Source of the DNA: Carnegiea gigantea
Lineage: Eukaryota; Streptophyta; Magnoliopsida; Caryophyllales; Cactaceae
Length of the DNA: 64,000 nucleotides
Reading direction: 5' to 3'
Assembly (NCBI GenBank): GCA_029747015.1
Contig: JAKOGI010000821.1
Span: 257,501-321,500, forward strand
The notes below the pieces were generated by a model, which saw nothing but the letters and a program-made list of their open reading frames with translations, was not told where the DNA came from and did no database searches. The position numbers were made by a program, and so were the translations under genes. Shown here one piece after another: positions 2,301 through 18,940 of the stretch. Positions within the stretch are counted from its first letter, which is position 1, and each line of letters starts with the position of its first letter.

Positions 2301-2468
2301 TATACTCTTATACTATATATGTTTCGTATTGGTGGATTTTCTTTGATATTGATAGATGTATCCTGATGGTTATCATAACGGAGTGGTGTTCAATTAGGAA
2401 AGGGGTAGGAGTCGTTTCTTATAGATAAGCGCAACCTTATTTCGCCCCCTTTTTGTGTGGTTTACAAC

Positions 2469-2975
2469 TGTTTCAAGACTTTTTCGTACCTTGTTAAAGA
2501 TGATGTGGGGCAAGAGCTCGGGTTTATGAGATGGTACGTGCAGATCAGCTGATGGGCTCCTTTCCTTGGTCAAACTTGCAAAAAAGGCACCCCTGGGTTG
2601 TGGTTCGGGGAACGCCTCCCCAACGATCAAGTCAAAGGAGGGTGCAAGAGGTATAAATGGAATAAAGAGAGAGAGAGAGAGTAAAGTCAATTCTATCAGA
2701 GTCCAATACGTTAGAGTCTGAATTCCTTCTCTGAAGTGGATAGGTGAGTATTTATAGTCCCTGTAGAAAGGAGCAGGATGGTAAATTCATACTGGGGATC
2801 CCCAGAGGGGGGACGCTGTCTAGTTTGTTCTGTTTGGGTGGGAGCCCCAAGAGTCCCATTTGGGCCTACTACCCCGTTCAGGCCTGCCTTGCAATTGGGG
2901 CTACTACCTCGTTCGGGCCCGCCTTGCGATTGGGTGCCTGTAGGCCTTCCAAAGAAAATCATATTTTCTGGATCA
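2469..2975 (-). repeat. 3' LTR of the Tat element
   Basis: Starts TGTTTCAAGAC and ends TTCTGGATCA on the + strand, giving TG...CA on either strand. It aligns along its length with 16312-16818 with scattered substitutions and small indels, so the insertion is not recent. On the minus strand it follows a purine-rich tract. Confidence 0.9.
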
Positions 2976-3110
2976 TTTAGCCCCCTACATTTTACTTGCA
3001 TGTGGGCCCGCTCGGGCAGTCAGGTGAAATGTGGATTAATCTGGTCGTCGCAACGGTCGGTGGGTTTTCGGGAAATAGTCTGTGCTTGGCTGGTTACCCT
3101 TCGCAGCTCT

Positions 3111-3194
3111 GACACTTGGCCGTCAGCTAGTGATGCCCTTGCGTTTTCGAGGTGGGCTGACGTACAAGGCCTTATCGAGTCTGGGGCATAAAAG
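3111..3194 (+). promoter_or_regulatory. Antisense promoter A
   Basis: A TATA-like box (CATAAAAG, 3187-3194) lies about 50 bp before the ATG of copy A, with ACACTTGGC (3112-3120) about 75 bp upstream. The spacing and motif match the promoters of copies B, C and the PF04195-like gene. Promoter activity is inferred. Confidence 0.5.
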
Positions 3195-3242
3195 GAGTTG
3201 CTCTAGATCCCTGATCTGCATCAAAGTCCTTACCTTCCTAAT

Positions 3243-3675
3243 ATGGGTTTCCCTCGATCATTGACGACGGACGAGATGACGCGTTACGTGTTGGGCAACT
3301 TTGAATGGTATCGTAGAGAGGTGGCTTCCCCCCTCGACCGCTACCAACTGATTACGAAGAGCTGTGTCCGGGCTTTGTCCTGGTCGAGGCCGAGGAATGT
3401 GCACCGGATTACGAGGTTCTTGAATTACCCCAGGTGGTATTCCTTGCAATGCTCCTTAATGACACCGTGAGGCTCGACTGCGTGGGTGGATGATCGGGGT
3501 CATGGAGTCGGCCCTCAAAGAGCTGCCACGGAGCACCTTCCAGGCATGGGTCGGGCACAACAGGGGCAGGACCCTGGAGGCCCATCAACAGGAAGCATCC
3601 AGTGACTGAGAAGTGGAGGAGAGCTCGGGGTCCGACGACCTGACTTCTCTCTCTAGCGATGGCAGCGAGCAGTAA
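3243..3675 (+). pseudogene. Antisense small orphan gene, copy A
   Basis: I do not recognise a named family. Start ATG 3243. The first ~35 codons resemble copy B (DEMTRYVLGNFEWY against EEMADHVRETFQWH). A single 1-nt shift near 3350 then moves the homologous reading (DYEELCPGF, VFLAMLLNDTV) to another frame. The homologous tail is acidic and serine-rich and ends at TAA 3673-3675, with one earlier in-frame TGA. The total of 433 nt is about 144 codons plus one extra base, the same length as copy C. It lies antisense to the retrotransposon, between integrase and the 3' LTR. A polyadenylation-like AATAAAATAA follows near 3763. Function is unknown; in its present state it cannot make the full protein. 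Confidence 0.6.
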
Positions 3676-3981
3676 GGCTTGGCTAGGGACGACCATTAGG
3701 GCATGCATCCCATGTTTCTCTTTTCTCTTCTGTCTTCCTCTTTTTGTACTCCGTAAGCATTTGCAATAAAATAACAACTTTCTCCACGGGAGCTTTACCT
3801 TAGTTTTTGCATTTTTGTGTACTGCTATTACCCAGGCAGCCTGGCCATTATGGCCTGAGTAGGTGATGTTGTGAGGCTCGGCCTTCTGGCCTAGGTCCCG
3901 AATGGGCGACCTCATGATCCTTCTCTAGGTCGGGGTATTCATTGTGGCAACATCGATATCAGGCACCTCGTAACTTACTGC

Positions 3982-4071
3982 CATGTGGCGAGAACTGAGT
4001 GGTGCCCTGATGCCGGGCAGTTTAGGAATGTGTGGTCCCCCTTCCCCCCTCTCTATTCCTCTCTATAAAAG
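3982..4071 (+). promoter_or_regulatory. Antisense promoter B
   Basis: CATGTGGC (3982-3989) followed by TATAAAAG (4064-4071) inside a pyrimidine-rich stretch (CTCTATTCCTCTC). The ATG of copy B is about 100 bp further on, after a leader containing AGAGAGAGAAG. It is the same layout as promoters A, C and D. Confidence 0.6.
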
Positions 4072-4172
4072 CGGAGCAGGTCTCCTTATGGAGGGTCACT
4101 TGAAAGTGTTCTTAAATCCTTAGAGAGAGAAGTAAGAGTTCCTAGAGTGAGACCCAGTTTGCAGCTCTAACC

Positions 4173-4635
4173 ATGGCCTTTACCCCCTTACAAGACACTG
4201 AGGAGATGGCTGACCATGTGAGGGAAACTTTCCAGTGGCATTGGAGGAGCGCCTTACGTCCTCTGCGTACACTCCTAGAGGACTACCGGGAGCTATGTCC
4301 ATGCTTCACTTTATCCGAGGCAGAGGAAGCAGCGCGTGACTTCAATCTTCCCGAAATGATTCAAGTGACCTTCTATGCTATGCTACTCAATGATGCCGTG
4401 GAGCTGGGCATAGCGAGCGAGTTGATGGCCGCTGATTTGAAGGCGTCCCTTAAAGGTTTGTAGTGGACACCCTTTGAATCCTAGATGCATGCCAATAGGT
4501 ACGGCCTTCTGGAGGCGCAGCTCCGCCAGGGAACTCCGCTGAGTGGTACGCACGGATCAGTAACCTGTCAAGGAGAAAGCTCGGGCTCAACTGATCCCCC
4601 ACCCCCTTCGAGCGATGAGGAGTGGTGTTTAGATT
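4173..4635 (+). pseudogene. Antisense small orphan gene, copy B
   Basis: ATG 4173 opens 96 codons with a helical domain: DTEEMADHVRETFQWHW, then ELCPCF, LPEMIQVTFYAMLLND and a C-terminal helix. Two in-frame TAG codons (4461-4463 and 4482-4484) interrupt it, after which the same frame continues with sequence related to copy C and ends in a Pro/Ser/acidic tail (SSDEEW). The intact form would be about 150 residues. The best conserved core (L-EM-Q--FYA-LLND--ELG) is shared by A, B and C. It is antisense to the retroelement and followed by AATAAA near 4712. I cannot assign a function; related orphan ORFs in plant repeats are plausible. Confidence 0.65.
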
Positions 4636-4887
4636 TCTCAAAGGATTTTCTTCTATTAGGCTTCCTTTCGCACGATCCTCCTTATGAGGCATGTCTGTCA
4701 TTGTGGGTTTTAATAATAAAATGCCGCCCCTCTATTCTAGGGGTCAACTCCTCCATTACACCACTTATGCTTTTATTTTACGGGGTCCTCTTTTGGTCAC
4801 CATGTCTTTATTCGATCCTGCCAGGCGGCCAGGCCCCAGGGAGCTTGAATAATGGACCCGATTTTTCAGACTTTAGGTTGTAGGGGC

Positions 4888-4967
4888 CACGTGGCAAGAA
4901 CGAAATGGCTCTTTGTCTCCTTGGGAAATGTGCTGTCCTTTAGGCTATCTACCCCTCTCTATAAAAG
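4888..4967 (+). promoter_or_regulatory. Antisense promoter C
   Basis: A G-box CACGTG inside GGCCACGTGGC (4888-4893 core) and TATAAAAG (4960-4967), with the same CCCCTCTC flank as promoter B. It is the best of the four promoters, and the only one with a perfect palindromic G-box. Confidence 0.6.
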
Positions 4968-5020
4968 AGGATGGGTAGAATCCTTTAAAAGGTGCCACCC
5001 AACAAATTTCCCTAACCTTT

Positions 5021-5080
<60 letters not shown>
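5021..5080 (+). repeat. (AC)n(AG)n microsatellite in leader of copy C
   Basis: Six AC units then about 24 AG units, between the TATA box and the ATG of copy C. Copies B and D have a short AGAGAGAGAAG at the same place, so the run probably grew by slippage from that leader motif. Confidence 0.9.
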
Positions 5081-5086
<6 letters not shown>

Positions 5087-5117
5087 TGATAGAGGGAAAA
5101 GAGAGAGAAAAGGAAGA

Positions 5118-5552
5118 ATGATCCTGTTTCCAAACTTCACAAATACCGAACAGGCGGCGGAATATGTTCGGGACATGTTTCGTTGGTCTTTAAAGGAGTC
5201 TTCAGCTCTTTGCCTGAATCTGCTTCCTGAGGATCACCGCGGCCTCTGCCCAAGCTTTGATCTTGTCGTGGCAACGTAGTATGCCCAGAACTCCAATATT
5301 CTGGAGATGGTGCAGGCAATCTTTTACGCCACGATTTTGAATGATGCTGCGGAACTAGGACTCGAGTGCAGACTCACAATGGATTACATGATGTGGGTTC
5401 TGCAGAAGCTGGACTGGGCCCCTATTGAATCATGGCTAGGAAACATCGAGAATAGGCTTAGGAGAGCCCAGGCCTCCCGCCTTGTAATCCCGCCGGCCGA
5501 CCTCGCGCCATAAGGCAGCGATGTCCCTCCTGCTTCAAGTGATGAAGCATAG
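5118..5552 (+). pseudogene. Antisense small orphan gene, copy C
   Basis: ATG 5118 reads a protein related to A and B: EQAAEYVRDMFRW, LCPSFDL, LEMVQAIFYATILNDAAELG, then WAPIESWLGN. One in-frame TAG (5278-5280) splits it, and TAA (5511-5513) precedes a still-homologous tail (SSDEA) that ends at TAG 5550-5552. Across these the length is 144 codons. The pattern 'W-P-ESW' is also seen in B after its first stop (WTPFES). It is antisense to the host element. ATTAAATAATGAA near 5630 could serve as its polyadenylation region. Function is unknown. Confidence 0.65.
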
Positions 5553-5879
5553 GTATAGAAGTTCTGTTGTCTTCCCCTTCCTTTGTCTGTACCCTTTATC
5601 ATTTGTGAAAGTTGGCTTGTAGCCGCTTTCATTAAATAATGAAATGGTTGTCTCGTGTTATACAGACTTCATTTTTACTTGATGCTCTTTCGTTCATGTT
5701 TGTTCGATACTCCACATGAATTCATCTTTCCCAGCCCCTTGGCTATATTTGAAAGTCGGCAGCTTCTGTCGGGGGATCAGCTGTGTAATGTTCGGCCTAC
5801 TACTGGCCCCAAGGATTCTCGGCCCTTTCGGAGAGGTTAGGGATGCGACAACTAGTTTTCGTCTGTATAACTAATCCGC

Positions 5880-6525
5880 TGGCTTTGACTAAAGGACAGA
5901 ATCCATGAGGCCGTGCCTAGGGACCTTTCATCCTCCATTAGGGCCAACAATGAATTTAGGGGCCAGCCTTGAAGCCGAGCTGTAAGGTTCTTAGCCCCCA
6001 TCGGGCTAAAGGTATATCGCCTGACCCTTAAGCTGAGCTGCTAGGCCCTTTGCCCCCATTAGGGCCATAGGTGTATCACCCAACCCCAAGGCTGAACTGT
6101 TGGACCGTAAAGCCGTGCTTATAGACTCTTAGCCCCCTTTCAGGATAAAATTATCACGATCAGCCCTAAGGTCGTGCTCATGGACTCCTAGCCCCCATTG
6201 TGGCTAAAAATGTAGCGACCGGCCCTAAGGCCGTATTCATGGACTCCTAGCCCCTATTAGGGCTAAAAGTGTAGCGACCGGCCTAAAGGCCGTGCTCATT
6301 GACTCTTAGTCGCATTGAGGCTAAAAGTATCGCAGCCGGCCTTAGGGCCGTGCTCATGGACTCTTAGCCCCTATTAGGGTAAAGATGTATGTATCACCCG
6401 ACCCTGAGGCCGAGCTGCAGGGCCCTTAGCCCCATTGGGGCCAGAGGTGTATTGCTAGGCGCCTAGGCTGAGCCGTAGGCTTCTAGCCCCCTTTGGGTGC
6501 TAAAAGTGTAATGGTTGGCCTCGAG
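5880..6525. repeat. 59-bp tandem array, copy 1
   Basis: About ten degenerate units of the repeat described at 9885-10585, recognisable from the recurring TAGCCCC-ATT-GGGGCTA and CGGCC-CTAA-GGCCG palindromes and the CTCATGGACTC linker. The left units (5890-6120) are the most diverged. The array sits just upstream of promoter D. Confidence 0.85.
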
Positions 6526-6562
6526 ACCAGTCTTCGGATGGTGACATGGTACTCTTGGGGCC

Positions 6563-6639
6563 ACATGTCAGGATGCTGTCCCCTCTCTATCATGGGAAAA
6601 GGTGCCTCCCTCTTCCTTGCTTCACTTCGTCTATATAAT
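6563..6639 (+). promoter_or_regulatory. Antisense promoter D (PF04195-like gene)
   Basis: CCACATGTC (6561-6569) and TATATAAT (6632-6639), 70 bp apart, followed by a leader with AGAGAGAGAAG (about 6690). It has the same architecture as promoters A-C, which suggests the four units were built from one ancestral promoter. Confidence 0.55.
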
Positions 6640-7156
6640 GAAGTTGGATCATTTGGGGTGGCATTTCCTTACACCCCCAAGCATTCCTTAGAGAGAGAAG
6701 CAAAATTATACAGAGAGAAGCTCCGCCTCTCCTTTAACCCATATTCAAACTCACTATAGTGTCTTCATCTTCTTTCTTTGAATCTTCAAAGGGTCTGTGC
6801 GTATCTTCATCTCTGTCTTCAATATTCCCTTCAAACCTTTATCTTTACATGTACGCCTTCATACCTCTTTTGAGGATTGTTGTTGTGTTTATGTTTATGT
6901 CTTCATCTTGTTCATCGAGTGGGAATGTTCCTGAGGGACCGATCGGCCCCCAGATGGTGGGCTGTCATCCATAATTTCTTAGCCTCCTGACCCTAATTGT
7001 TGGCCGGGTGGTAGCACACATCTCTCCAAAGAATCAGTTTAGGGAGCCAAAAAGGATTCCCTATGCGGTGCCCCAGTTGGAGGCCAACACGCCCTCTTGG
7101 TCTAGCTACGAGTACTCCTCCACCTCCAGCACTGGGAAATCGTTACAGCTGACTTT

Positions 7157-9629
7157 ATGACTGATGTCCAGGAACGACGAATGGCTAAAACCAAGTACAT
7201 CCCTTGCACCAGGACCCCGGATGAGCTGTTGGCCGAAGGGACCATTAAAGGTAATTTCTGCTCTGTTTCGAGTTCTCAAAAGCCGAGAGCCGAGGTCTTA
7301 TCTACTAATTCTAGTTCTTCTTTGGCTAGGACGTCCACTAGTTCTTCATCGGACAGAACATCGACTAGCTGTTCCTCGGATGGGATGTTGGCTAGTTCGT
7401 CTTCGACCAGGGTGTCTACTAGCTCTTCATCACGAACAGTGCCTAATGCCCCGAGAAGGGCTGTGGTCAAGAAAAGAGAGTGTACCCAAATAGAGCCGGT
7501 CCTCGAAATCGTGGCTGAAGGGGCGGTATTTTGCGGGGCTCCTTCTCGCTCGGACCCTATGGACAGATTGAGCATACATTTCCCTAATCCGAAGGTCGTG
7601 CCTTCCCTGAAGAGGACAACCCTCGAGAAGAAATATCTCTTGCCCGCGGGCTATAGTTTTGTAATCCCTGAAGTGGATGCAACTGTGAATAAATCACCCC
7701 CAAAATGTATAGTAATCTATCGGGTGGCCTTCAACTATGGTGTACGGTTTCCTCTTCACCCGGTGATCATGAACATTTTGAATAAGTTTAAGCTTGCGCC
7801 TACACAGATTGTGCCTACGTCAAGCACAACATATGCTCCTTCACAGCAACATGTGAGCTCCGTAGCCTAACCTGTACCGCCCGAGCATTCAGCCTGGTTC
7901 ATTCAATCCAGAGGGCTCCCAAGGAGACCAGGGACCTTGGTTGGTATTGTTTCAACAGTAGGTAAGGTTTTATGATGACCATTGAGAAAAAGTCAAAAGA
8001 AAAGAATTAGAAGTATGAATTCCTCTTCGTCCGCTGAGATTCGGGCTGGGGGGACCTTGCTTATTGGAATGAAGAAAAACCGGTTAGGAATCGCTTTGGG
8101 GAGCCAACTACCTAAGAATAGAGGATGACCCGTTACTTCCATTACTACATATGTGAGGACGACCGTCCAAGGCCTATTCCTAAGTTTATGGCCCAAGTGA
8201 TAGAATCTACACAGGGGCTCGATAAGAAGAATAGCAAATCTAGTGACAGGGAGCTGTTGAATTGGCTTCCGAAGTTAAAGTTCTTCGAGAACCACTTCTT
8301 CTTGGCCACTACGGGCTCCTTATTCTTAAGAATTTTTCTAAGGGTACTTAACATTCCTACCTTGGCCAACCTTTTCATTTGGTTCTGACCTGACTCTTTT
8401 TAACTTTGTACAAACCAAGCAAGGGCGAAGTTGACACCCTTTGAGACCGGAGACGCCACCCCCGAGCAGGTAGCGGCCAATGCCGAGCGTCGCCGTGAGG
8501 AGGAAAGGTGTCTTCTTATGAACATGGCGGCTAAAAAGGTATGCACATGAGCCTTTAGATCTTCGTATGTTGTAACTCCTTATACTATGAGATTAACCTT
8601 CCCCTCTCGTCATAGACACCCCTTCTGGTACCGCGCGGGAAGACGCCCATAATAAGTTTACCCCCTGTGGGTGGGCGTAAGCATCCGCAGGTGGAAGATC
8701 GTCGGCAGAAGCAGTAGCCTCTTCTCCGGCCCCTACTAAGGGTAAGTAAGGTAAAGGGATGTCTCCTACCCCATGGTCCACGGACTGGTCGGTTGGTGGC
8801 CAAACTCTGGGTCCCCTGGAAGCTGCCGGTACCCCCAAGGTCGTGCAAGTGGCTTTGCTAGCCATGAGGGGGTACTTCAGTGGACGCCTGGGTGCACCCC
8901 GTGAACCTCCTGACAGCCGATCCAGCTGCCAAGTTCACGCTGGTTCATGAGCTGACCAAGTCATGGGACTTGCTCACCTCGGGGACTTCAGAGCCCATCA
9001 ATGTCACCGAAGAAGAGGTGGCTATTGCTGAGGTAGGTGGAATGTACTCTTCCTTCTTTCCTCTTTTTTCAGCTTTCCGTTCTGCTTTGTTCTTTGTGAA
9101 TTTGTTTTGCAGGCTCTTACTCAGGCGATAAAGGCCATGTCCGAGCGCCGTAAGTTAGAGGACGCCGTGGTCAAGTACAAATGCCGCTGGGAAAGGCTGA
9201 GGGAGGATAAGGCCACTTGGGAGGCCAAGAAGAAAGACCTGTAAGGCAGGTTAGACGAAGCGGTCTCCAAGGCCGAGATTGCACTCGCAAGGGCTGAGGC
9301 TGAGGCTATAGCGGGGGTCGAGAAGGCGGCCAAGGCCGAAGAGCAAGCCTATCTGTGGGGCCATTGAGGAGGGCGTGGAATTTCTCCGCAAGGTCTTGAC
9401 GACCTTAGCCCCTAATTTCCGAGAGGAAAGCTACTTCGAGGCCTACATTCATTATGTGGAAGAGCGCCAAAGGGCTAAGGCCGAAGGCTGGGACCCCGAA
9501 GAGGTGGAGTTCATCCCATCCTCCGTCGAAGGGGATGATCTTGAAGGTAAGGGGACTACACCTCTGGGTGGTGAAACTGGGACCCCGGACGATGAGGGTC
9601 ATAACGACGGGGGGGAACCCGATGTGTAA
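7157..9629 (+). pseudogene. Antisense PF04195-like gene (putative gypsy-type transposon protein), broken
   Basis: An open stretch 7157-7870 (237 codons) has a Ser-rich low-complexity middle. Its end, from about residue 155, matches the start of the plant PF04195/Transposase_28 domain (RFPLHPVIMNIL, KLAPTQIVP). Further pieces follow in other frames: GWYCF near 7940, KYEFLFVR near 8010, MTRYFHYYICEDDRP at 8125. A good intron lies at 9032-9112 (GTAGGT...TTTTGCAG). After it comes a charged, alanine/glutamate-rich coiled coil (9113-9350) and a C-terminal open frame 9375-9629 ending in an acidic tail. The order matches PF04195 proteins of plant repeats. Several stops and shifts make it a pseudogene. 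The true start is uncertain: promoter D is 525 bp upstream, so an upstream exon may exist. The protein's biochemical role is not established in the family. Confidence 0.7.
9032..9112 (+). other. 81-bp intron of the antisense PF04195-like gene
   Basis: It has a GTAGGT donor, a T-rich body (CTTCTTTCCTCTTTTTTCAG) and a TTTTGCAG acceptor. It joins VAIAE to ALTQAIKAM in frame. It is retained inside an element that copies itself through RNA, which is possible because it is on the strand opposite to the genomic transcript. Confidence 0.65.
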
Positions 9630-9884
9630 CTTTTTTTAAAAAAAAACGTTTCCCCTCATTGTACCTTTTTGGCCTATTGGCCTTCCATTAGTGTTTGTAC
9701 TCTTTTTCCTATCAATGAAGGATGTTTATCTGTTGGCAATTGTGTTTCTTTTTTTTTTTTACTGCCTGCCTGTCGTACTTGTTATTTCGCTTTGCTTTTG
9801 TTTCACTCTGCTTGTACTTTATGGGATAGTAGCCCCCAAGAGAAAGAACAAGCAGTATGACACTGATCTTTGTTGAAATGGGGA

Positions 9885-10585
9885 CATAGCGACCAGCCCA
9901 AAGGCTGTACTCATGTACCCTTAGCCCCCATTGTGGCTGAAAGTCTAGCGACCGGCTCCAAGGCTGTGCTTATGGACCCCTAGCCCCCATTGGGGCTAAA
10001 AGTGTAGTGACCGGTCCTAAGGTCGTGCTCATGGACTTTTAGCCCCTATGGGGGCTAAAAGTATCGCGACCGGCCGTAAGGCCGTGCTCACGAACTCTTA
10101 GCCCCCATTGGGGCTAAAAATATAGCGATCGGCTCTAAGGCCGTGCTCATGGACTCCTAGCCCTCATTGCGGCTAAAAGTATAGCGACCTGCCCTAAGGC
10201 CGTGCTCATGGACTCTTAGCCCTCATTGGGGTTAACGTGTAGTGACTGGCCCTGAGGCCGCGCTCATGGACTCTTAGCCTCCATTAGGGCTAAAAGTGTA
10301 GTGACTGACCTTAAAGGCCATGCTCATGGACTGTTAGCCCCTATTGGGGCTAAAAGTATCATGACTGGCCTTAAGGCCATGCTCACGAACTCTTAGCCCC
10401 AAAGTGTAGCGACCGGCACAAAGGCCGCGCTCAAGGACTCTTAGCCCTCATTGGGGCTAAAAGTGTAGCGACCAGCCCTAAGGCTGTACTTATGGACTCT
10501 TAGCCCCCATTAGGATTAAAAATGTAGCAACCGGCCCTAAGGCCATGCTCATGGACTCCTAGCCCCCCATTGGGGCTAAAAGTGC
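9885..10585. repeat. 59-bp tandem array, copy 2
   Basis: Twelve units; TAGCCC starts at 9922, 9981, 10040, 10099, 10158, 10217, 10275, 10335, 10394, 10442, 10501 and 10560. The period is 59 bp except for one short 48-bp unit. Each unit holds two perfect or near-perfect hairpins: TAGCCCCCATTGGGGCTA and CGGCCCTAAGGCCG. It lies directly after the antisense PF04195-like gene and 100 bp from the integrase stop. Confidence 0.93.
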
Positions 10586-10684
10586 AGGTCAGATAGTTCT
10601 GCTCGTGGAATTGCCTTCATAGGCCTTGTATTCATTTCTTTCAAAGCATAAGTACATAATTGATGAGCGTTTACAAAGGGAAAA

Positions 10685-13600
10685 CTATGAGTAGTACTTT
10701 CGTAAATTGCTGCTATGCCAAGTCCTTGTTATAGGTGTGCCATCAGTAGTCTGAAGGCGATACGTGCCAGGCCTTGTTAGAGCGACGACCTTGTATGGGC
10801 CTTCCTAGTTGGCTGTGAGCTTACCATGTTCGCTTGTACATGTTACGGCTTCCGTGCGGTGAAGAACGAAGCCTCTGACGTGTATTGGCTGCATCTTCAC
10901 TGCCCGGTCATGGAGACACGCGATGCGGAGCTTGTAAGTGCTTCTTGGAGGAGGGCGTCTCCTCTGACAGAAGGGAAGAGGTCCACGGCTTCTTGGAGCG
11001 CTACGTTGTTTAACTCTTCCTGGAACATGGTAAGGCAGTGGGTGTGGAGTGCAACTTTGATCGGTAGGATAGCCTCTGACCCGTACTCTTGGCCTCATCG
11101 AGTTTCTTTTGTAAGCCATGTAGGAGTGCCTTGTTGGCTGCTTCGGCTTGACCATTTGTCTGAGGATGGGCGACAGCAGTGAACCTAGCTTGGCACCCCA
11201 AGATGCTCAAGTAGTATGTGAGCTTAGTGGGGTCAAACTGTCACCCGTTGTCGAAAATCTTGGTACGGGGGACGCCGAAGTGATTGATGATGTTCTTCTA
11301 GATGGATTTTCATACTTCGGTGGCAGTAATAGAGGCGACTACCTCGACTTAGATCCACTTCGTGAAGTAATCAACTGCAACAAGGAGATATTTGCGCTGC
11401 CCTGTAGCCTTGAGGAAGGGACACAATATATCCATACCACAAGTGGCGAAGGGTAAGGGGCTGACGACGGGCATTAGAGGGCTGGTGGGCAGCCGTTGGA
11501 TGGGAGCAAACTTTTGGCATTTTTCGCATGTGTTGACTAAGTTCATGACGCCCTCTCGTAGGCTTGGCTAATATTAGCCGGTACATTCGGCTGTGACTGC
11601 TAGTACACGACCCTCTATGTGCGAGCTGTACACTCTTTCATGTAACTCCTCAAGTATCTTTTTCCCGATCTTTGGGGTCACGCAACGTAGGAGGGGTTGA
11701 GCAAATGATCTTTTATATAGTAGCCCATCATAGAGGATAAACCAATTAGACCGCTGCTTCACATGATCGGCTTCTTTCGGGTTCGCCGGTAGGGTACCGT
11801 CAGTAAGGTATGCGCGGATGGGATCCATCCACGCCGAGCTCCTATCCAGCCATAACATTTCATGAGGATTAATGCTTCTTTTTGTCAAAGTCTCCTATTG
11901 GATGTTCTTAGGTTTTCCATCCTCGTAGAGCTTGCCAATTTCGACAGCGCATCAGCCTGTCAGTTTCTGACCGCAGGATGTGCCTTATCGCAAAGTGTTT
12001 TAGCAGCTGGGTGGCTTCCTGCACTCGCCGAACATATGCTACCATAGTGTCGTCCTTGACCTCGTAGTTCCCATTGAGTTGGCTAACCACCAGCTAGGAG
12101 TCAGAAAATGCCTGGACCGAATCGGCCCCTACGGTGTAGCACAGTTCTATTCCCGCTATCATGGCCTCATACTCGGTTTCATTGTTGGATGCCTTGAACA
12201 TAAACTTCAATGTGTATCCGTGCTGCTCACCGCTAGGGCTCTCAATAACGAGGCCGACTCCGCTTCTATTCTTTGTGGATGAACCATCAACGTAAAGGTG
12301 CCATGCACGAGGGGATAGGACATAGCCCGAAGTAGCAATAATGCTTTCTGCCAGAAAATCAACTAAGGCCTGGGTTCTGATGGCCCGCCATGTCTCAAAT
12401 ACCAGATTGTACTATGACAATTCGACGGCCCACTTTAAGAATCGACCGAAGGCATCTAGCCTCTGTAGGACGTTTCTTTAAGGGTTGGTCATTAAGGACG
12501 ATGACCCTGTAGGCTTCGAAGTAAGGCCGCAACTTTCGACTGGCCATCACCAGTGCATAGGCGAACTTCTCTATGAGGGGATAATTTATCTCAGCCCTGG
12601 CCAGTGCGTGGCTCACATAATATACTGGGATCTGCTCTTTGGCTTGCTCCACCACTAGGATCGCACTAATGGCTTGCTCTGAGACGGCCAAATAGAGTTG
12701 GAGTGTTTCCCCAACTAAAGGGCTCGCTATTTTGGGTAGCTGAGCTAGGTACGTCTTTAGTGTTTGAAAGGCTTCATCAGCCTCATGATCCCGGTAAAGT
12801 TATCCCGCTATCACAGGGCACGAAAGAAGGGATGGCACTTGTTGGCTGACCTAGACATGAATCGCCCCAAAGCTGCAATGCATCCCGTTAATTGTTGTAC
12901 CTCCTTAGCATTCCGCGGCGGCTTCATATCCAAGACGGCCTGGATCTTGTCTGGGTTAGCCTCTATTCCCTAGCTGCTGATTATGAATCTGAGGAATTTA
13001 CTTGAACGTACCTCGAACACACATTTCTTTGGATTTAGCTTCATCCCGAAGGCTTGGAGCATATCGAACGTTTATCGCAGGTCTTGGCCATGGGTATCAT
13101 CCGGCGTGCTCTTTGCTATCATGTCGTCAACGTAGACTTCTATGGTTTTCCTGATAAGGGGTTCGAACAACTTCTTTACTAGCCACTGATAGGTAGCCCT
13201 CGCGTTTTTCAACCCGAAGGGCATCATCTTATAGCAATGTAGCCCCGAATCGGTGATGAATGCGGTCTTCTCTTGGTCCTCCAAACATAAGGGAATCTGG
13301 TGATGCCTTGAGAAGGCGTCCATAAAATTCAACAAGGTGTGTCCGGCCGTGGCGTCTACTAGTTTATCAATCTTCGAAAGGGGGTAGCTGTCCTTAGGAC
13401 AGGCCTTGTTGAGGTCAGTGAAGTCTATGCACATTCTTCAGGTCCCATTGGGCTTTTCCAGCAATACCACATTTGAGATCCACTCAGGGTACTGACACTC
13501 TCTAATGAATCTTGCCTCCAGTAGCTTCTGTACCTTAGCGGTTGCTGCGGCCGCTCTTTCTGGTCCCATGTGGCATTTCTTCTAGATGACCCGTTTATAT

Positions 13601-14480
13601 AGGGGGTCCAAATTCAGCCTGTGCTCCATGATGGCTGGGTTGATACCGAGCATTTCCTCAGCGCCGAAAGCGAATACGTCCTGGTACTCCCATAGGAGTG
13701 AGACCAATAAGTTGCGGCTTGTAGCTTCCATTTCCCGGTCCAGTTGGACTTTTCGGTCGGGATGCCCCTCTTCTAACGGAACATGGTCCATATTTTCCGC
13801 GGCCTCAGGATGAGGTCGATTGGGCTCCACTGAGGCTAGGGTGTGTATAACCAAAGTCTCCGCCACTGGTGGGGGTAGAGGGAGCGCGGTTCGGGGCTTC
13901 TTTTCCGTTGTAAGTACGCCATCAGGCCCCCGTTTATTCATCCGCTTCACGAGAGGACTAATGCTCACCAAGTAACATTCCCAAGCAGTGCGTTGGTCTC
14001 CTTGCATCATGCCTACACTTCCATCGTCGGCTTCAAACTAAAGCTGCAATAAGTAGGGAGCGATGACGACCTTCACTTTGTGCAGGGTAGGTCGCCCTAG
14101 GATGACATTGTAAGCTGTGGGGACGTCCATGACTAAGAAGTCTACCTCCAAATTCTTTGCCCTCACCTTGTCGCCAAAGAATAAGGAAAGGTAAATCACT
14201 CCAGTAGGGTTCACCTTTTGCCCCCCAAAACCCAGGATTAGACGGACTAGAGGGACGATATCCCTTCCCAGATATGTTAGCTTCTCAAGGCAGTCTCAAG
14301 TGATGATGTCCATGGAACTCCCTGTGTTAATGAGGATTCTTCGTACAATCGCACTAGCCACCTTCATTTCTACCACTAATAGGTCATTATGCTGGGATGT
14401 GAAACATGGGCCTTGTTCCCCACCAAACACCATGGTGGGGACTGTAATGCGACTCCCTTGTTCAGCAGTAAGGACCTACT
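10685..14480 (-). pseudogene. pol: Pol region of the Tat element: protease, RT, RNase H, aRNase H, integrase
   Basis: On the minus strand, protease is near 14350-14050; its catalytic triplet is changed to NTG (D to N) and a TGA follows a few codons later. RT is at 13434-13072 with DLNKACPKD, MPFGLKNA and an intact YVDD. RNase H is at 12691-12395 (AVSEQAISA, KLRPYF). The second RNase H is at about 12310-11900, with YVDGSS, NNETEYEA and FSDS followed by a stop. Integrase runs from 11888: zinc-finger region, core with CEKCQ and GMDIL and DYFTKW (about 11540-11350), HPQTNGQAEAANK (about 11180-11140), and a C-terminal end with GTYRL and stop at 10685-10687. The pieces lie in several frames with many stops. 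Domain order and the extra RNase H assign it to the Tat lineage of Ty3/gypsy. It is inactive as it stands. Confidence 0.9.
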
Positions 14481-14519
14481 GTGCCCCCGAAGCTGAGCCT
14501 TCTAAGCAGACCGAGTGAT

Positions 14520-16274
14520 GCCTTCAGCATATCCGCTAGCAATAGTTGCCACTATCTCGATGGAGCATTCTTTGTCTTGTGGTTCTGGCCATGTTGGCTC
14601 GCATTCCTTTCATAGGAGCTACAAACCCCGCTACAAAAATCGATCAATTTACCCCTTATCCGCCAGCTCGTGAAGAGGCTTCCTCAACTCCCAACATTCG
14701 GCGATCGTGTGTCCATTTTGCTCATGGAACTCATAGTATTTTCGCATATTTTGGGGTTTAGGTGCCGAGGTCATGGAGGCGGTTTTCTCAGCATGGGATG
14801 ATGCCTTACTTCCATAAGGATGCTTCGAGGATCTGTGGTAAACAGTGGATCAACAACCTCGAGGCGCGGCCTCTGTTCTCCTGGGCCGTGGTTCCTGTCA
14901 CCTCTATTGGAGTTCCTATCTGCAGGGGTTTTAGCCCTCTTAGGGGCATCTGAACTATTCGGCACAGATTTCAGTGGCGCGGATGAAGTCCGTAACTTTT
15001 CTCAGTGCTTGCAAGAGTGGTCTCCTTCTGCTCGGCTAGGGAGAACTTGAACCACCCACTTTTCAAGTCGTTTAGAAAGGAGGCGTATGTGACCCCATCC
15101 TCCAAGTCCAGGATTAGGACTGCTTCTTGATGGAAACGTTTCACAAAGTCTGCTAAGGATTCTTGCGAGCCTTGCTTGATTTTGGAGAGGTGTATGCTGG
15201 TTAGCCTCTCTTTCCGGCTGGCGATGAACTGGCTAACAAACCTGTCCGCTAGATCTTGGAAGCAAGAAATGGTTCCTGGGGGCAAGCCATTAAACTAGGA
15301 TTGTGCCACTCCCTTTAGGGTTGTAAGGAAATATCAGAAATACGCTGCGTCGTCCATATCTTGGATGTACATCTGTGCCTTATAAACCCTTAGATGCTCC
15401 TCAGGGTCAGTCGTGCCATCATAGAGGTCCATGGTGGGCATCTTTACCTTCCCATATCGTGGAGCATTAACGATCTCCGAGATGAATGCTGTAGAGAAAG
15501 GGCAGGCCCTGCCCAAGCGGTCGTGCCAGATACTTTGACGGGAGTCTCTAGACACCTTTCTACCTCTACCAGCGACAAACTCCTGCGGCGAGGGCTCCCC
15601 CTCGGGGATCTGGGTGGAGTCAGATCTTGCTGGTGAGACCGCGGGCCGTGCCTTTCCCAGGGGGACTTCGGGTACGCTCACAATCGGAATGATGCTCTGG
15701 CGTCCGTCATCATTCGGAGACCTCTCTTTGAGGCCGCGAGGTCTGTTCTTCCTCTTCAAATGGTCGGTTGAGAGTGTGTTGCATACGACGTAGAGGCGGT
15801 GGTTGACTTCGCTGGATGTCCGTGGCTCGAGTGATGGGTAAGGTGCTCGTTGGCCCCAATAGAATGGCTACTGTTTTCTTCTCGTGACCGTCGGTATTCG
15901 CTCGTGTGAGGGGCCTCTTGCATCCTCTCACTACGGCGGGGGGACACCATGGGGTCGCACCTATGGGAGGGTTTGCAACCCATTGTAGGCACATATTCGA
16001 AACGAGGGAGAGGCCTCACGGAGCTTGTTGCCTCCACCGTCTTCTTCACCTTTTCAGAGACTTGCTGCATTATGGCGCTAGTCATAGTGGACATAAAGTT
16101 CTTGAGGGCATCCACTGTAACGTATGCCTCTTGCCTGGCCGGGGGTTGATCGAGCGGCCTGGGATCCGCCTGAGAACTTTATGAGGCGTCCACAGCCTCA
16201 GGGGGGACTGGTGCTTCCGCGACGGGCGCTTTATCACTCCTAGCCCGTGCCCGTGTGGCATCACTGACTACCAT
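14520..16274 (-). pseudogene. gag: Gag region of the Tat element
   Basis: The likely start is the ATG at 16274-16272, about 40 nt inside the 5' LTR. The N-terminal part is low complexity, with a stop (TAA) about 31 codons in. The capsid-like part is well matched: MPTMDLYDGTTDPEEHL (15440-15400) and, after a break, PGTISCFQDLADRFVSQF and a downstream ADFVKRFHQE (15285-15130), which is the plant Retrotrans_gag pattern. A degraded zinc-knuckle-like piece (GHTIAEC) lies near 14710 with stops after it. It is non-functional by the same stops and frame changes seen in pol. Confidence 0.85.
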
Positions 16275-16311
16275 CGTTCACCGATCTCGTCCCCACAGAT
16301 TGGGCCAAATC

Positions 16312-16818
16312 TGTTTCAAGACTTTTTCGTACCTCATTGAAGATGACATGGGGTAAGAGCTCGGGTTTATGAGATGGCACGTGCGGATCAGCTAACGGGC
16401 CCCTTCCTCCATCAAACCTACAAAAAAGGCACCCCCGGGTTATGGTCCGGGGAATGCCTCTCCGACGGTCAAGTCAAAGGAGGATCCAAGAGGTGTAAAT
16501 GCAATAAAGAGAGAGAAAGTAAAGTCAATTCTATCAGAGTCCAATATGTCAGAGTCCGAATCCCTTTCCCGAGGTGGGTAGGTGAGTATTTGTAGTCTCT
16601 GTAGCAAGGGGTAGGATGTAAATTCATACTGGGGACCGAAAGGGGGGACGCTGTCTGGTTTGTTCTATTTGGGCCATTGGGTGGGAGCCCCAAGAGTCCC
16701 GTTTAGGCCTACTACCTCGTTCAGGCCTGCCTTGTGATGGGGCCTACTACCTCGTTCGAGCCTGCCTTGCGATTAGGTGCTCGTGGGCCCTCCAAAGAAA
16801 ATCATATTTTCTGGATCG
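16312..16818 (-). repeat. 5' LTR of the Tat element
   Basis: Partner of 2469-2975. It ends GGATCG instead of GGATCA at the outer edge, so the terminal CA/TG is mutated on this side. The minus-strand sequence next to it (16311-16290, TTTGGCCCAATCTGTGGGG) looks like a degraded version of the TGGCGCC-GTCTGTGGG primer site common in Tat elements. Confidence 0.9.
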
Positions 16819-18940
16819 ACAACATTTTCCCCTCGTGGTTTTTTGGCTTCTTGGGTACGCCCCTTATTCCAATCTTTTAACTAACAAAATTAGTGGATTA
16901 TAAAAGAGGAACTATGGACTCCGATCGCACAACCTTTTGGGTGTTTTAGATGAGAATAATCCAACCTTTAAAATTAGCACCCAACGTCCTAATGCTTAGG
17001 CATGGGGTTTTTTTTATATATATAGCAATTTCAAGTTAACAACACTTTGACCGGCCTGTTTGATTATATTGTGGTTTACTGATCATATATGAACAATGGC
17101 GCAAGAAATGTGAACGACAATAGTCCACGCATGATAAATTAGTCATCACTTCTTAAATTGGCAGTAAAAAGTGTTTATGATCGATGATGTTGTAAATAAA
17201 AAATATATATACCCTTAAGATTTACAATTAATAAAGGATCCTTATTTGTCACAACTAAATGGTAGTGTTGGAAAAAGCAAAGGAATATATACCATCACCA
17301 AGTGATAAACAACTTTTTTTCTTTTGCATAAAGAGAAGAATTCATTAATCATTAATAACTTGCTAAGCAACACTTATAATATATGATTGACGAAAACAAA
17401 AATAATTTTTTCTAATCAAAATACAATCTTAACGAACTAACTTACGTGATGATCACTTGTCTTCTCAATCAAATCGTTGTTTGTTAATACAGCTTCGAGA
17501 AGACATCAACATATCTATTGTAATTTTCTACTACTAGAAGATCTGCGGATCTAGTGTAGTTTCTTAAGCCAAATATTCTTCCTACATGAAAAATTGTAAT
17601 TGAAGTGTCGACGCGAATTAAACTACCACTTTGCAGTAAAATGTGATTCGTCCCTAAAAATCAAGTAAACAACCACATAAATCAACTAAAATCAAAACTA
17701 AAGTAACACTCTCACAATTCAAGGGAAGAATAACTCTCACAAGTGGAGAGATACTTACTAGTAGAAAGATAAAACAATACTAAGGCAAATAGAAAGAAAA
17801 GACAAATGGCCAGGATGACTGAAGAATCAGCCATCCTGGATCGTTAAATTACTACAACGAATCAAAGAGATGAGAGAAAGATGAATATTGAGAGCAGATG
17901 GGGGGGAAGGTGGTTACCTACTATAAATAAGTTAATATGTCATCAAATTGACAAATCAAAGAGTCATTAACTTGTTAGGGGCATCTTAAAAATAAGGGAG
18001 AGTGGACGATGATAATATGTACGTTGGGAATATTAGATGATGATAATCCCAAATTTAGTGTTATATATCAATCATCTATATGTTGAACATATGTTATACA
18101 TATTTTATGTCTTTATACTTTCAAACTCAACGTAATAAAACAATTTCACAAAGGTATGTAGACGTACATATTTAAAAATGCAAGCATTTTTAAATGTATA
18201 CATTTGCATATGTTTAATATGCACTTCTACTATTGAGTTAGCACCTTCAATTTAGGTGTTGGCATAAAATTGTTAAATACAATTCCAAACTATGGACCGC
18301 TATTGTCAAACATCAAACTTAGGATTATTATCCTCCCATACTCCCAAAGTGCATATTATTTTCGTTCAATAATACCCTTTAGGGTTGGAGTGGTGACTCA
18401 CCAAATTTAGAGATGAAATCACTCTTGTAAGAGTCTTAAATATGAAAATATTAGTGTCAAAAAAAGGTGAATACTTTACTTCTTATTTAAAAAGTAACAA
18501 GGAAAAAATTTGTCCCATCTCAATTCTCAAACCTGAACCAAACTATGATTCATAGGTGAATTTTGTGTGGGGCCTGAGAGGGCTTAGCCTCTCCTAGTTT
18601 TAACCCAGAAAAATGGCCTTGTCCACTTTAATAGTTTATCTCTTCTTCCTATATTCTTTTCATCCCACTTCTTTTATCATGCCAATTAAATATTCAACAG
18701 ATGTTTGATCCAATTTTGTTAGAATGTGTTGGAAAAATATGATTGAAAATTATTTATTTATTTTCTTATTGAATAGTGTTTGACCAAATTATGGCTAGGT
18801 CTTTCGTAACTCCCGATTTATTTTGAGGTTTAAATTGTTTGTAACTTATGGTCTTGAAGTGGATAACCTTTTTTTAATTGAGAAAAGGGGGGAGGGTATT
18901 ATATTAAATTGTCATTGACGTAACATACATATCATTTGAA
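16819..18940. other. Intergenic DNA
   Basis: It starts with the ACAAC target duplication and a T-rich stretch that may be the rest of the interrupted LINE tail. The remainder is AT-rich with no convincing frame. A strong 30-nt hairpin sits at 17810-17839. I see no gene. Confidence 0.5.

Follow-up and report, generated by a model that had tools for sequence, protein, structure and literature searches.

Can a plant long terminal repeat (LTR) retrotransposon carry, on the strand opposite to gag and pol, a set of genes with promoters of their own? The question is raised by an element in the window analysed here, a 64,000-nucleotide stretch of the Carnegiea gigantea genome (positions 257,501-321,500 of JAKOGI010000821.1, from a 1.13 Gb assembly). 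The Gag, reverse transcriptase (RT), RNase H, second RNase H and integrase pieces of this element are all encoded in minus orientation. An SH3-like C-terminal piece of integrase closes pol at 10685, and the 7.7 kb from there to the 3' LTR hold four plus-strand, that is antisense, units, named U1 to U4, with upstream regions P1 to P4 (Table 1). A preliminary description of the sequence had proposed that one promoter was duplicated with the genes, giving a set of independently expressed antisense genes. Our study indicates that the block probably forms the accessory region at the 3' side of a Tat lineage of Retand-like type, with four discrete antisense protein genes; a plan of promoter-like region followed by open reading frame (ORF) is seen in all four units, and a poly(A) signal in three.

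Coding constraint and the small-protein family

Copies of the element were located with a DNA query made from U2. Of 186 candidates, 40 gave scored matches, one of them the window, with identities of 74-100%. Our main set contains 20 of the 39 other copies, from the same genome and 6.7-7.6 kb each, and a held-out set contains 8 of the remaining 19, about 3 kb each, P4 lying outside these stretches. The rows counted below include the window; for upstream counts, rows with long runs of N were dropped. Searches of the 20 copies with window pieces (blastn) recovered U1 in 19, U2 in 20, U3 in 16 and the start of U4 in 18, and the ORFs of the copies are 65-86% identical to the window. The sole copy missing U1 is L037, where the sequence reads N. 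With a protein model applied to stop-free frame pieces, three small-family domains were found in 18 of the 20 copies and two in L034 and L037, all of them on the plus strand, and the held-out copies have three in 8 of 8.

In all four units, differences between copies are in excess at the third codon position. The rates at positions 1, 2 and 3 are 0.195, 0.184 and 0.318 in U1, 0.200, 0.165 and 0.327 in U2, and 0.245, 0.206 and 0.386 in U3, with the same excess in three pieces of U4 (third position 0.417-0.442); the control spacers gave 0.276, 0.272 and 0.252 (3700-3940) and 0.251, 0.303 and 0.231 (4690-4860). Median pairwise ratios of nonsynonymous to synonymous substitution (dN/dS), calculated from 8 to 21 rows of window and copies, bear out the expectation of constrained ORFs: they lie at 0.20-0.28 in the plus frame of the units (U4 pieces 0.28, 0.23 and 0.20), against 0.48-0.72 in two spacer controls with six frames each, and at 0.76-1.20 in the other plus frames. 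In each gene a mirrored minus frame has a low ratio as well (0.27-0.45), which is expected since it shares its third positions with the true frame. The share of stop codons is 1.1-1.8% in the plus frame, against 2.5-9.1% in the other frames, with the exception of one U4 minus frame (1.3%). A minus-strand ORF over U1 (3409-3915) was considered and rejected, its dN/dS being 0.36 against 0.24 for the plus frame and its stops 3.8% against 1.1% of codons.

A periodicity scan of 2976-10685, comparing the window with the 20 copies in segments of 120 bp, reached p<1e-6 inside each of the four units and in none of the spacer or tandem-array segments of that interval. One promoter segment (6486-6605) also passed p<1e-6 (ratio 1.32), and a few spacer segments fell between 1e-4 and 1e-6. 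In U1, changes of phase mark its frameshifts. Since pairs of copies are not independent, these coding contrasts are descriptive. As read from the substitution patterns, the units are four coding islands that were under purifying selection while the lineage was active; the proposed ORF per unit is thus found as coding islands across copies, and none is intact in the window copy.

U1, U2 and U3 encode tandem paralogues of about 120-150 amino acids with a common motif around LCPxF and LPE..QATFYAMLLNDAVELG. In a tree of 64 domains, 41 of them from copies, domains of the same unit cluster together across the copies (U1 0.955, U3 0.988, U2 0.821), so the triplication predates the divergence of the copies. 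The first domains of proteins P0030 and P0041 join U1 (0.991), and therefore at least the U1 split predates the P0030/P0041 families; their second domains sit with P0104, in a placement beside U1 and U2 that is poorly resolved (0.582). Common motif, protein model and tree together agree with the preliminary description in finding three tandem paralogous ORFs. Three protein searches returned 21, 294 (the best 120 of 294 listed) and 37 proteins, and among the matches listed all named sources are Carnegiea, the others being ENA, JGI and lgn entries.

The U1-U3 proteins are predicted to be helical. No Pfam family was found for the U1, U2 and U3 pieces, P0104 or P0114. An AlphaFold2 model built from 25 rows (mean predicted local distance difference test score 73) gave best Foldseek E-values of 3.1 in the PDB and 2.2 in a viral library, and a sequence-profile search of the PDB with the family gave a best E-value of 0.3, so no fold was assigned. 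We tentatively consider that these helical proteins may partner one another, or element or host proteins. Two proteins, P0104 and P0112, represent a 150-amino-acid family member with 16 and 8 member sequences from ENA sources, a hint of a relative with low divergence, and perhaps with recent activity, in a different plant sample. In P0116 (216 amino acids) a U3-like part precedes another U3-like domain, so that one more small paralogue may be present in some copies.

The fourth ORF had been described as PF04195-like, and this reading is upheld by one of five sister pieces scoring above the Pfam cut-off of 26.2 bits (29.2); three score below it (23.4, 22.2 and 21.8), one has no match, and U4 of the window itself reaches 18.2 bits. 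A chromodomain in U4 (PF00385 at 9113-9241, 24.0 bits, cut-off 25.1) was rejected: it did not recur in the two sister pieces searched and was read as coiled coil. U1-U3 as truncated TRP28 was likewise rejected, as hhalign against U4 gave a probability of 0.3%, leaving U4 not detectably related to U1-U3, and no PF04195 match was found.

Upstream regions, 3' ends and introns

The four upstream regions were compared by local alignment with 500 dinucleotide shuffles per pair. All shuffles were exceeded by U2-U3 (score 57, shuffle maximum 47), U2-U4 (44, maximum 37) and U3-U4 (45, maximum 42), and not by the U1 pairs, whose scores were reached by 59 of 500 shuffles (U1-U2, 24), 326 of 500 (U1-U3, 18) and 500 of 500 (U1-U4, 14). 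Profile models of the P1-P4 cores were trained on the main-set copies and run over the same copies, so that the counts are matches and not copies. The P2 model matched 15 times before U3 (14 at E<0.01), 14 times before U4 (7) and once before U1 (E 7.5); the P3 model matched 20 times before U2 (20 at E<0.01) and 10 times before U4 (6); and the P4 model matched 15 times before U2 (3) and 3 times before U3 (3). Block-shuffled copies gave no match at E<0.01 with the P2, P3 or P4 models. The P1, P2 and P3 models each recovered their own place in all eight held-out copies, where, at E<0.01, the P3 model recovered P2 in 8 of 8, the P2 model recovered P3 in 3 of 8, and the P4 model recovered P2 in 2 of 8 and P3 in 0 of 8.

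On these alignments and profiles, homology links the upstream regions of U2 and U3 and, less strongly, that of U4. The idea of one shared promoter therefore fits U2 and U3, less strongly U4, and is not supported for U1. Nor was the U4 promoter simply duplicated with a homologous gene, since U4 is not detectably a paralogue of U1-U3. An LTR origin of the antisense promoters was rejected because the P1-P4 models have no LTR match at E<1 (best E 1.3).

The box followed by a TATA-like element, as described for each unit, is present in the window at a spacing of 70-82 bp, and the AGAGAGA leader occurs in three of four units (U2, U3 and U4). The decayed TATA of U1 reads CATAAAA in the window against TATAAA in 19 other rows. 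TATA[AT]A was found in 19/20 rows of P1, 19/20 of P2, 13/16 of P3 and 14/19 of P4, where shuffles predict 0.8-1.6, and the literal TATA lies in the matched core of 7/8 held-out copies for both P1 and P2. A CACGTG core occurs in 0, 7, 6 and 8 rows of P1 to P4 (expectation 0.2-0.6), a box with TATA 40-110 bp further on in 15, 11, 11 and 10 rows (expectation 0.0), and AGAGAGA in 0, 18, 15 and 17 rows (expectation 0.1, 2.1, 4.5 and 0.8). When positions were ranked by column identity, the TATA 6-mer was 4/197, 1/252, 6/258 and 10/287 in P1 to P4, and the box 18/195, 154/250, 28/256 and 140/285. Compared with CACGTGGC and CACGTGTC, the boxes CATGTGGC and CACATGTC of the window are changed at the CpG, a difference that fits decay of methylated CpG.

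An AATAAA/ATTAAA-like region near the end of each unit is supported for U1 and U2 and more weakly for U3 (Table 1; AATAAA expectation 0.2-0.8 rows after each), and is not for U4. Behind U1 and U2 the spacing of AATAAA is nearly fixed. The U4 introns could be spliced only from an antisense transcript, and the genomic RNA would therefore carry them intact.

Readings of the antisense block

From the TATA and poly(A) signals we infer that the units are expressed separately. RNA polymerase II would transcribe them from integrated DNA, apart from the LTR promoter, and the introns and poly(A) signals of the genes would lie idle in the genomic RNA and so survive transposition, because that RNA is the opposite strand. 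Their products would be nuclear accessory factors that tune expression or integration of the element, or counter host silencing. The wider proposition, which we regard as evenly balanced, is that a Tat lineage carries a minus-strand accessory genome as a second gene set. In this view each of the four antisense genes would have its own promoter, three would be old and diverged paralogues for which our searches gave no named source elsewhere, a duplicated G-box/TATA promoter would be common to part of the set, and the introns would be preserved because the genomic RNA is of the opposite strand.

Several observations weigh against four separate genes under a common promoter. The case for separate units is one of sequence signals, and all 28 copies were located via U2. 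The window copy is dead, all four units being broken. On intact ORFs, whose absence from every copy had been named in advance as counting against the proposal, the outcome is mixed: several of the 28 copies have one or two small ORFs open across nearly the whole domain, and a frame-by-frame scan found all three open in none of the 28. The control 5600-5960 has a mild third-position excess (0.335 against 0.264 and 0.273). P1 is not detectably homologous to P2-P4, and its model matches P1 alone at E<0.01. Other matches at E<0.01 were obtained with the P2, P3 and P4 models, numbering 5, 4 and 1 on the plus strand and 1, 1 and 5 on the minus strand; the stray plus-strand P2 and P3 matches shown (L036, L027 and L031) lie directly before U3 domains. 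The held-out copies have one stray minus-strand P2 match and one stray plus-strand P3 match, and the literal TATA of P3 is found in only 3/8 of them, in one case off its usual place. The CACGTG box, over-represented as it is, is no better conserved than its surroundings in P2 and P4. After U4, AATAAA occurs in 0/7 rows and a variant in 3/7 (0.4 expected), and the window has only AATGAA at 9714.

The alternative that fares best, although we consider it unlikely, is a single long antisense transcript from one promoter, in which U1-U4 are exons or a polycistron and the inner motifs are remnants of duplication. It would account for inner boxes conserved no more than their surroundings, and Carnegiea gene models (for example P0022, P0023 and P0024) merge the domains of U1 and U2, and in some cases of U3, into a single hypothetical protein; these models therefore annotate element genes as host genes. 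Against a long transcript, the TATA is among the best-conserved stretches of every upstream region by the ranks given above, AATAAA stands at a nearly constant distance behind U1 and U2, and no coding periodicity bridges the units.

Less probable still is that the antisense RNA itself is active, through double-stranded RNA or interference with the sense transcript, and that the proteins are incidental. Such a role has been discussed for antisense transcripts of LTR elements (PMC7264820; this and the papers below are cited from the available parts of their texts). The third-position excess and the dN/dS of 0.20-0.28 in all four genes require selection on protein; the two roles can coexist. Recent capture of a host gene, with U1-U3 as tandemly duplicated passengers, is very improbable: the units do come with promoter and poly(A) signals, as expected of host genes, but the triplication predates copy divergence and the U1 split predates P0030 and P0041, no named source besides Carnegiea appears among the matches listed, and constraint persists across copies as divergent as those described above. 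An ancient host origin of U1-U3 is possible.

The element, related systems and meaning

On its domain order, the element is classed as Ty3/gypsy of Tat type (Retand-like). It is an old copy. RVT_1 was found, RT_RNaseH_2 and RT_RNaseH score above their Pfam cut-offs, and the integrase pieces score below theirs. Between RNase H and integrase lies a second RNase H, the mark of the Tat clade, though just under the Pfam cut-off (RVT_3 21.4 bits, cut-off 21.6; RNase_H 21.1, cut-off 25.8); it bears out the identity proposed earlier. The order RT, RNase H, second (archaeal-type) RNase H and integrase is that of Ogre and Retand (PMC6317226), and the features of Retand, an antisense PF04195 (TRP28) gene and a long region between pol and the 3' LTR, are both found. 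The LTR pair (aligned as 2468-2974 and 16311-16817) has 88% identity over 499 sites and a Kimura two-parameter distance of 0.133, which at 7e-9 substitutions per site per year, the rate applied to pitaya (PMC8260669), would place the insertion at about 9.5 million years. In the 3' LTR, a plus-strand TATAAA at 2652 is followed by an AG run that resembles the leaders of U2-U4. The two 59-bp tandem arrays flank U4, and many of their repeat units contain a palindrome like TAGCCCCCATTGGGGCTA. The internal region (2976-16311) is about 13.3 kb and exceeds the maximum of 12,869 bp in the table of PMC11963269. Rfam gave no match within the window.

Table 1. Coordinates of element features in the window (position 1 is the first nucleotide of the window)
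Feature	Position	Strand	Observation
Target-site repeat ACAAC	2464..2468		second copy at 16819-16823
3' LTR	2469..2975	-	ends set by eye at TG..CA
P1, upstream of U1	3113..3242	+	CACTTGGC at 3113, decayed TATA at 3187
U1, first small-family gene, frameshifted here	3243..3640	+	dN/dS 0.24; domain found
AATAAA after U1	3765..3770	+	14/20 rows
P2, upstream of U2	3982..4172	+	CATGTGGC at 3982, TATAAA at 4064, AGAGAGA leader
U2, second small-family gene, two in-frame stops here	4173..4640	+	dN/dS 0.27; domain found
AATAAA after U2	4715..4720	+	16/21 rows
P3, upstream of U3	4888..5117	+	CACGTGGC at 4888, TATAAA at 4960, long AG leader
U3, third small-family gene, in-frame stops here	5118..5553	+	dN/dS 0.21; domain found
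ATTAAA after U3	5631..5636	+	AATAAA in 7/16 rows; any variant in 11/16 (3.7 expected)
59-bp tandem repeats, upstream of P4	5980..6500	+
P4, upstream of U4	6562..6740	+	CACATGTC at 6562, TATATA at 6632, AGAGAGA leader
U4, TRP28 (PF04195)-type gene, at least 2 introns, broken here by stops and frame changes	6936..9629	+	periodicity, dN/dS, Pfam
U4 intron, GT..AG	8539..8615	+	kept in 3/3 rows, window included
U4 intron, GT..AG	9033..9112	+	kept in 7/7 rows, window included
Second 59-bp tandem array	9880..10640	+
Gag-pol side, many stops; RT, RNase H, second RNase H, integrase pieces	10685..16311	-	piece-by-piece domain search
5' LTR	16312..16818	-	LTR pair alignment

The survey of Vicient 2025 (PMC11963269) describes antisense ORFs on the 3' side of pol, before the LTR, as characteristic of Retand and gives TRP28 in 97% of clusters. 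The present element resembles those of that survey in these ORFs, in its PF04195 gene, in its tandem arrays and in its long internal region. It differs in the length of the region between pol and the 3' LTR, which is 2,933-6,566 bp in the survey and 7.7 kb here, and in three extra small paralogous antisense genes, which lie below the ORFs of at least 600 bp mainly considered there. Upstream regions and introns of the antisense genes are described here, and none were found in the available part of that paper. Neumann 2019 (PMC6317226) also reports extra ORFs in reverse orientation at the 3' side, with Transposase_28 in 23% of Retand elements, but counted only ORFs of at least 250 codons. Genes like U1-U3 would be missed with both cut-offs because their 120-150 codons fall under 600 bp and 250 codons.

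A precedent is gene23 of maize Grande (Gomez-Orte 2013, as cited in PMC7264820 and PMC11963269), stated in PMC7264820 to be transcribed from its own promoter and to have a nuclear product. It too is an accessory gene in antisense orientation that lies between pol and the 3' LTR, with a promoter of its own there and promoter-like sequence here; Grande has one such gene, whereas four are present here, partly with homologous upstream regions. TATA, poly(A) and intron signals are conserved across our copies. HBZ of human T-cell leukaemia virus type 1 (HTLV-1) is likewise an accessory protein gene in antisense orientation that has its own start and lies outside the genomic transcript (PMC11963269, PMC7264820), but the HTLV antisense promoter sits in the 3' LTR, whereas the P1-P4 models match no LTR here at E<1. 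Among the papers listed by a literature search of open papers, none was seen to report four antisense genes, or small paralogues, in an element of this kind, and a search on Tat elements of cacti found nothing on antisense genes in the available parts of the texts.

A single antisense gene with its own promoter is already known from maize Grande; for a set of four, our searches gave no earlier report. The antisense accessory genes of Tat elements have so far had no known function, and the four described here mark the region as a gene-bearing module and not filler. Three related small proteins, side by side and under selection, make a compact family to test, and their upstream regions a promoter family to assay. 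If short genes of this kind are common in Tat elements, surveys that counted ORFs only from 600 bp or 250 codons upwards have overlooked them. These results give grounds to scan further Tat elements again for short antisense genes hidden by length cut-offs, and Tat-type elements may carry more accessory genes than the surveys have counted.

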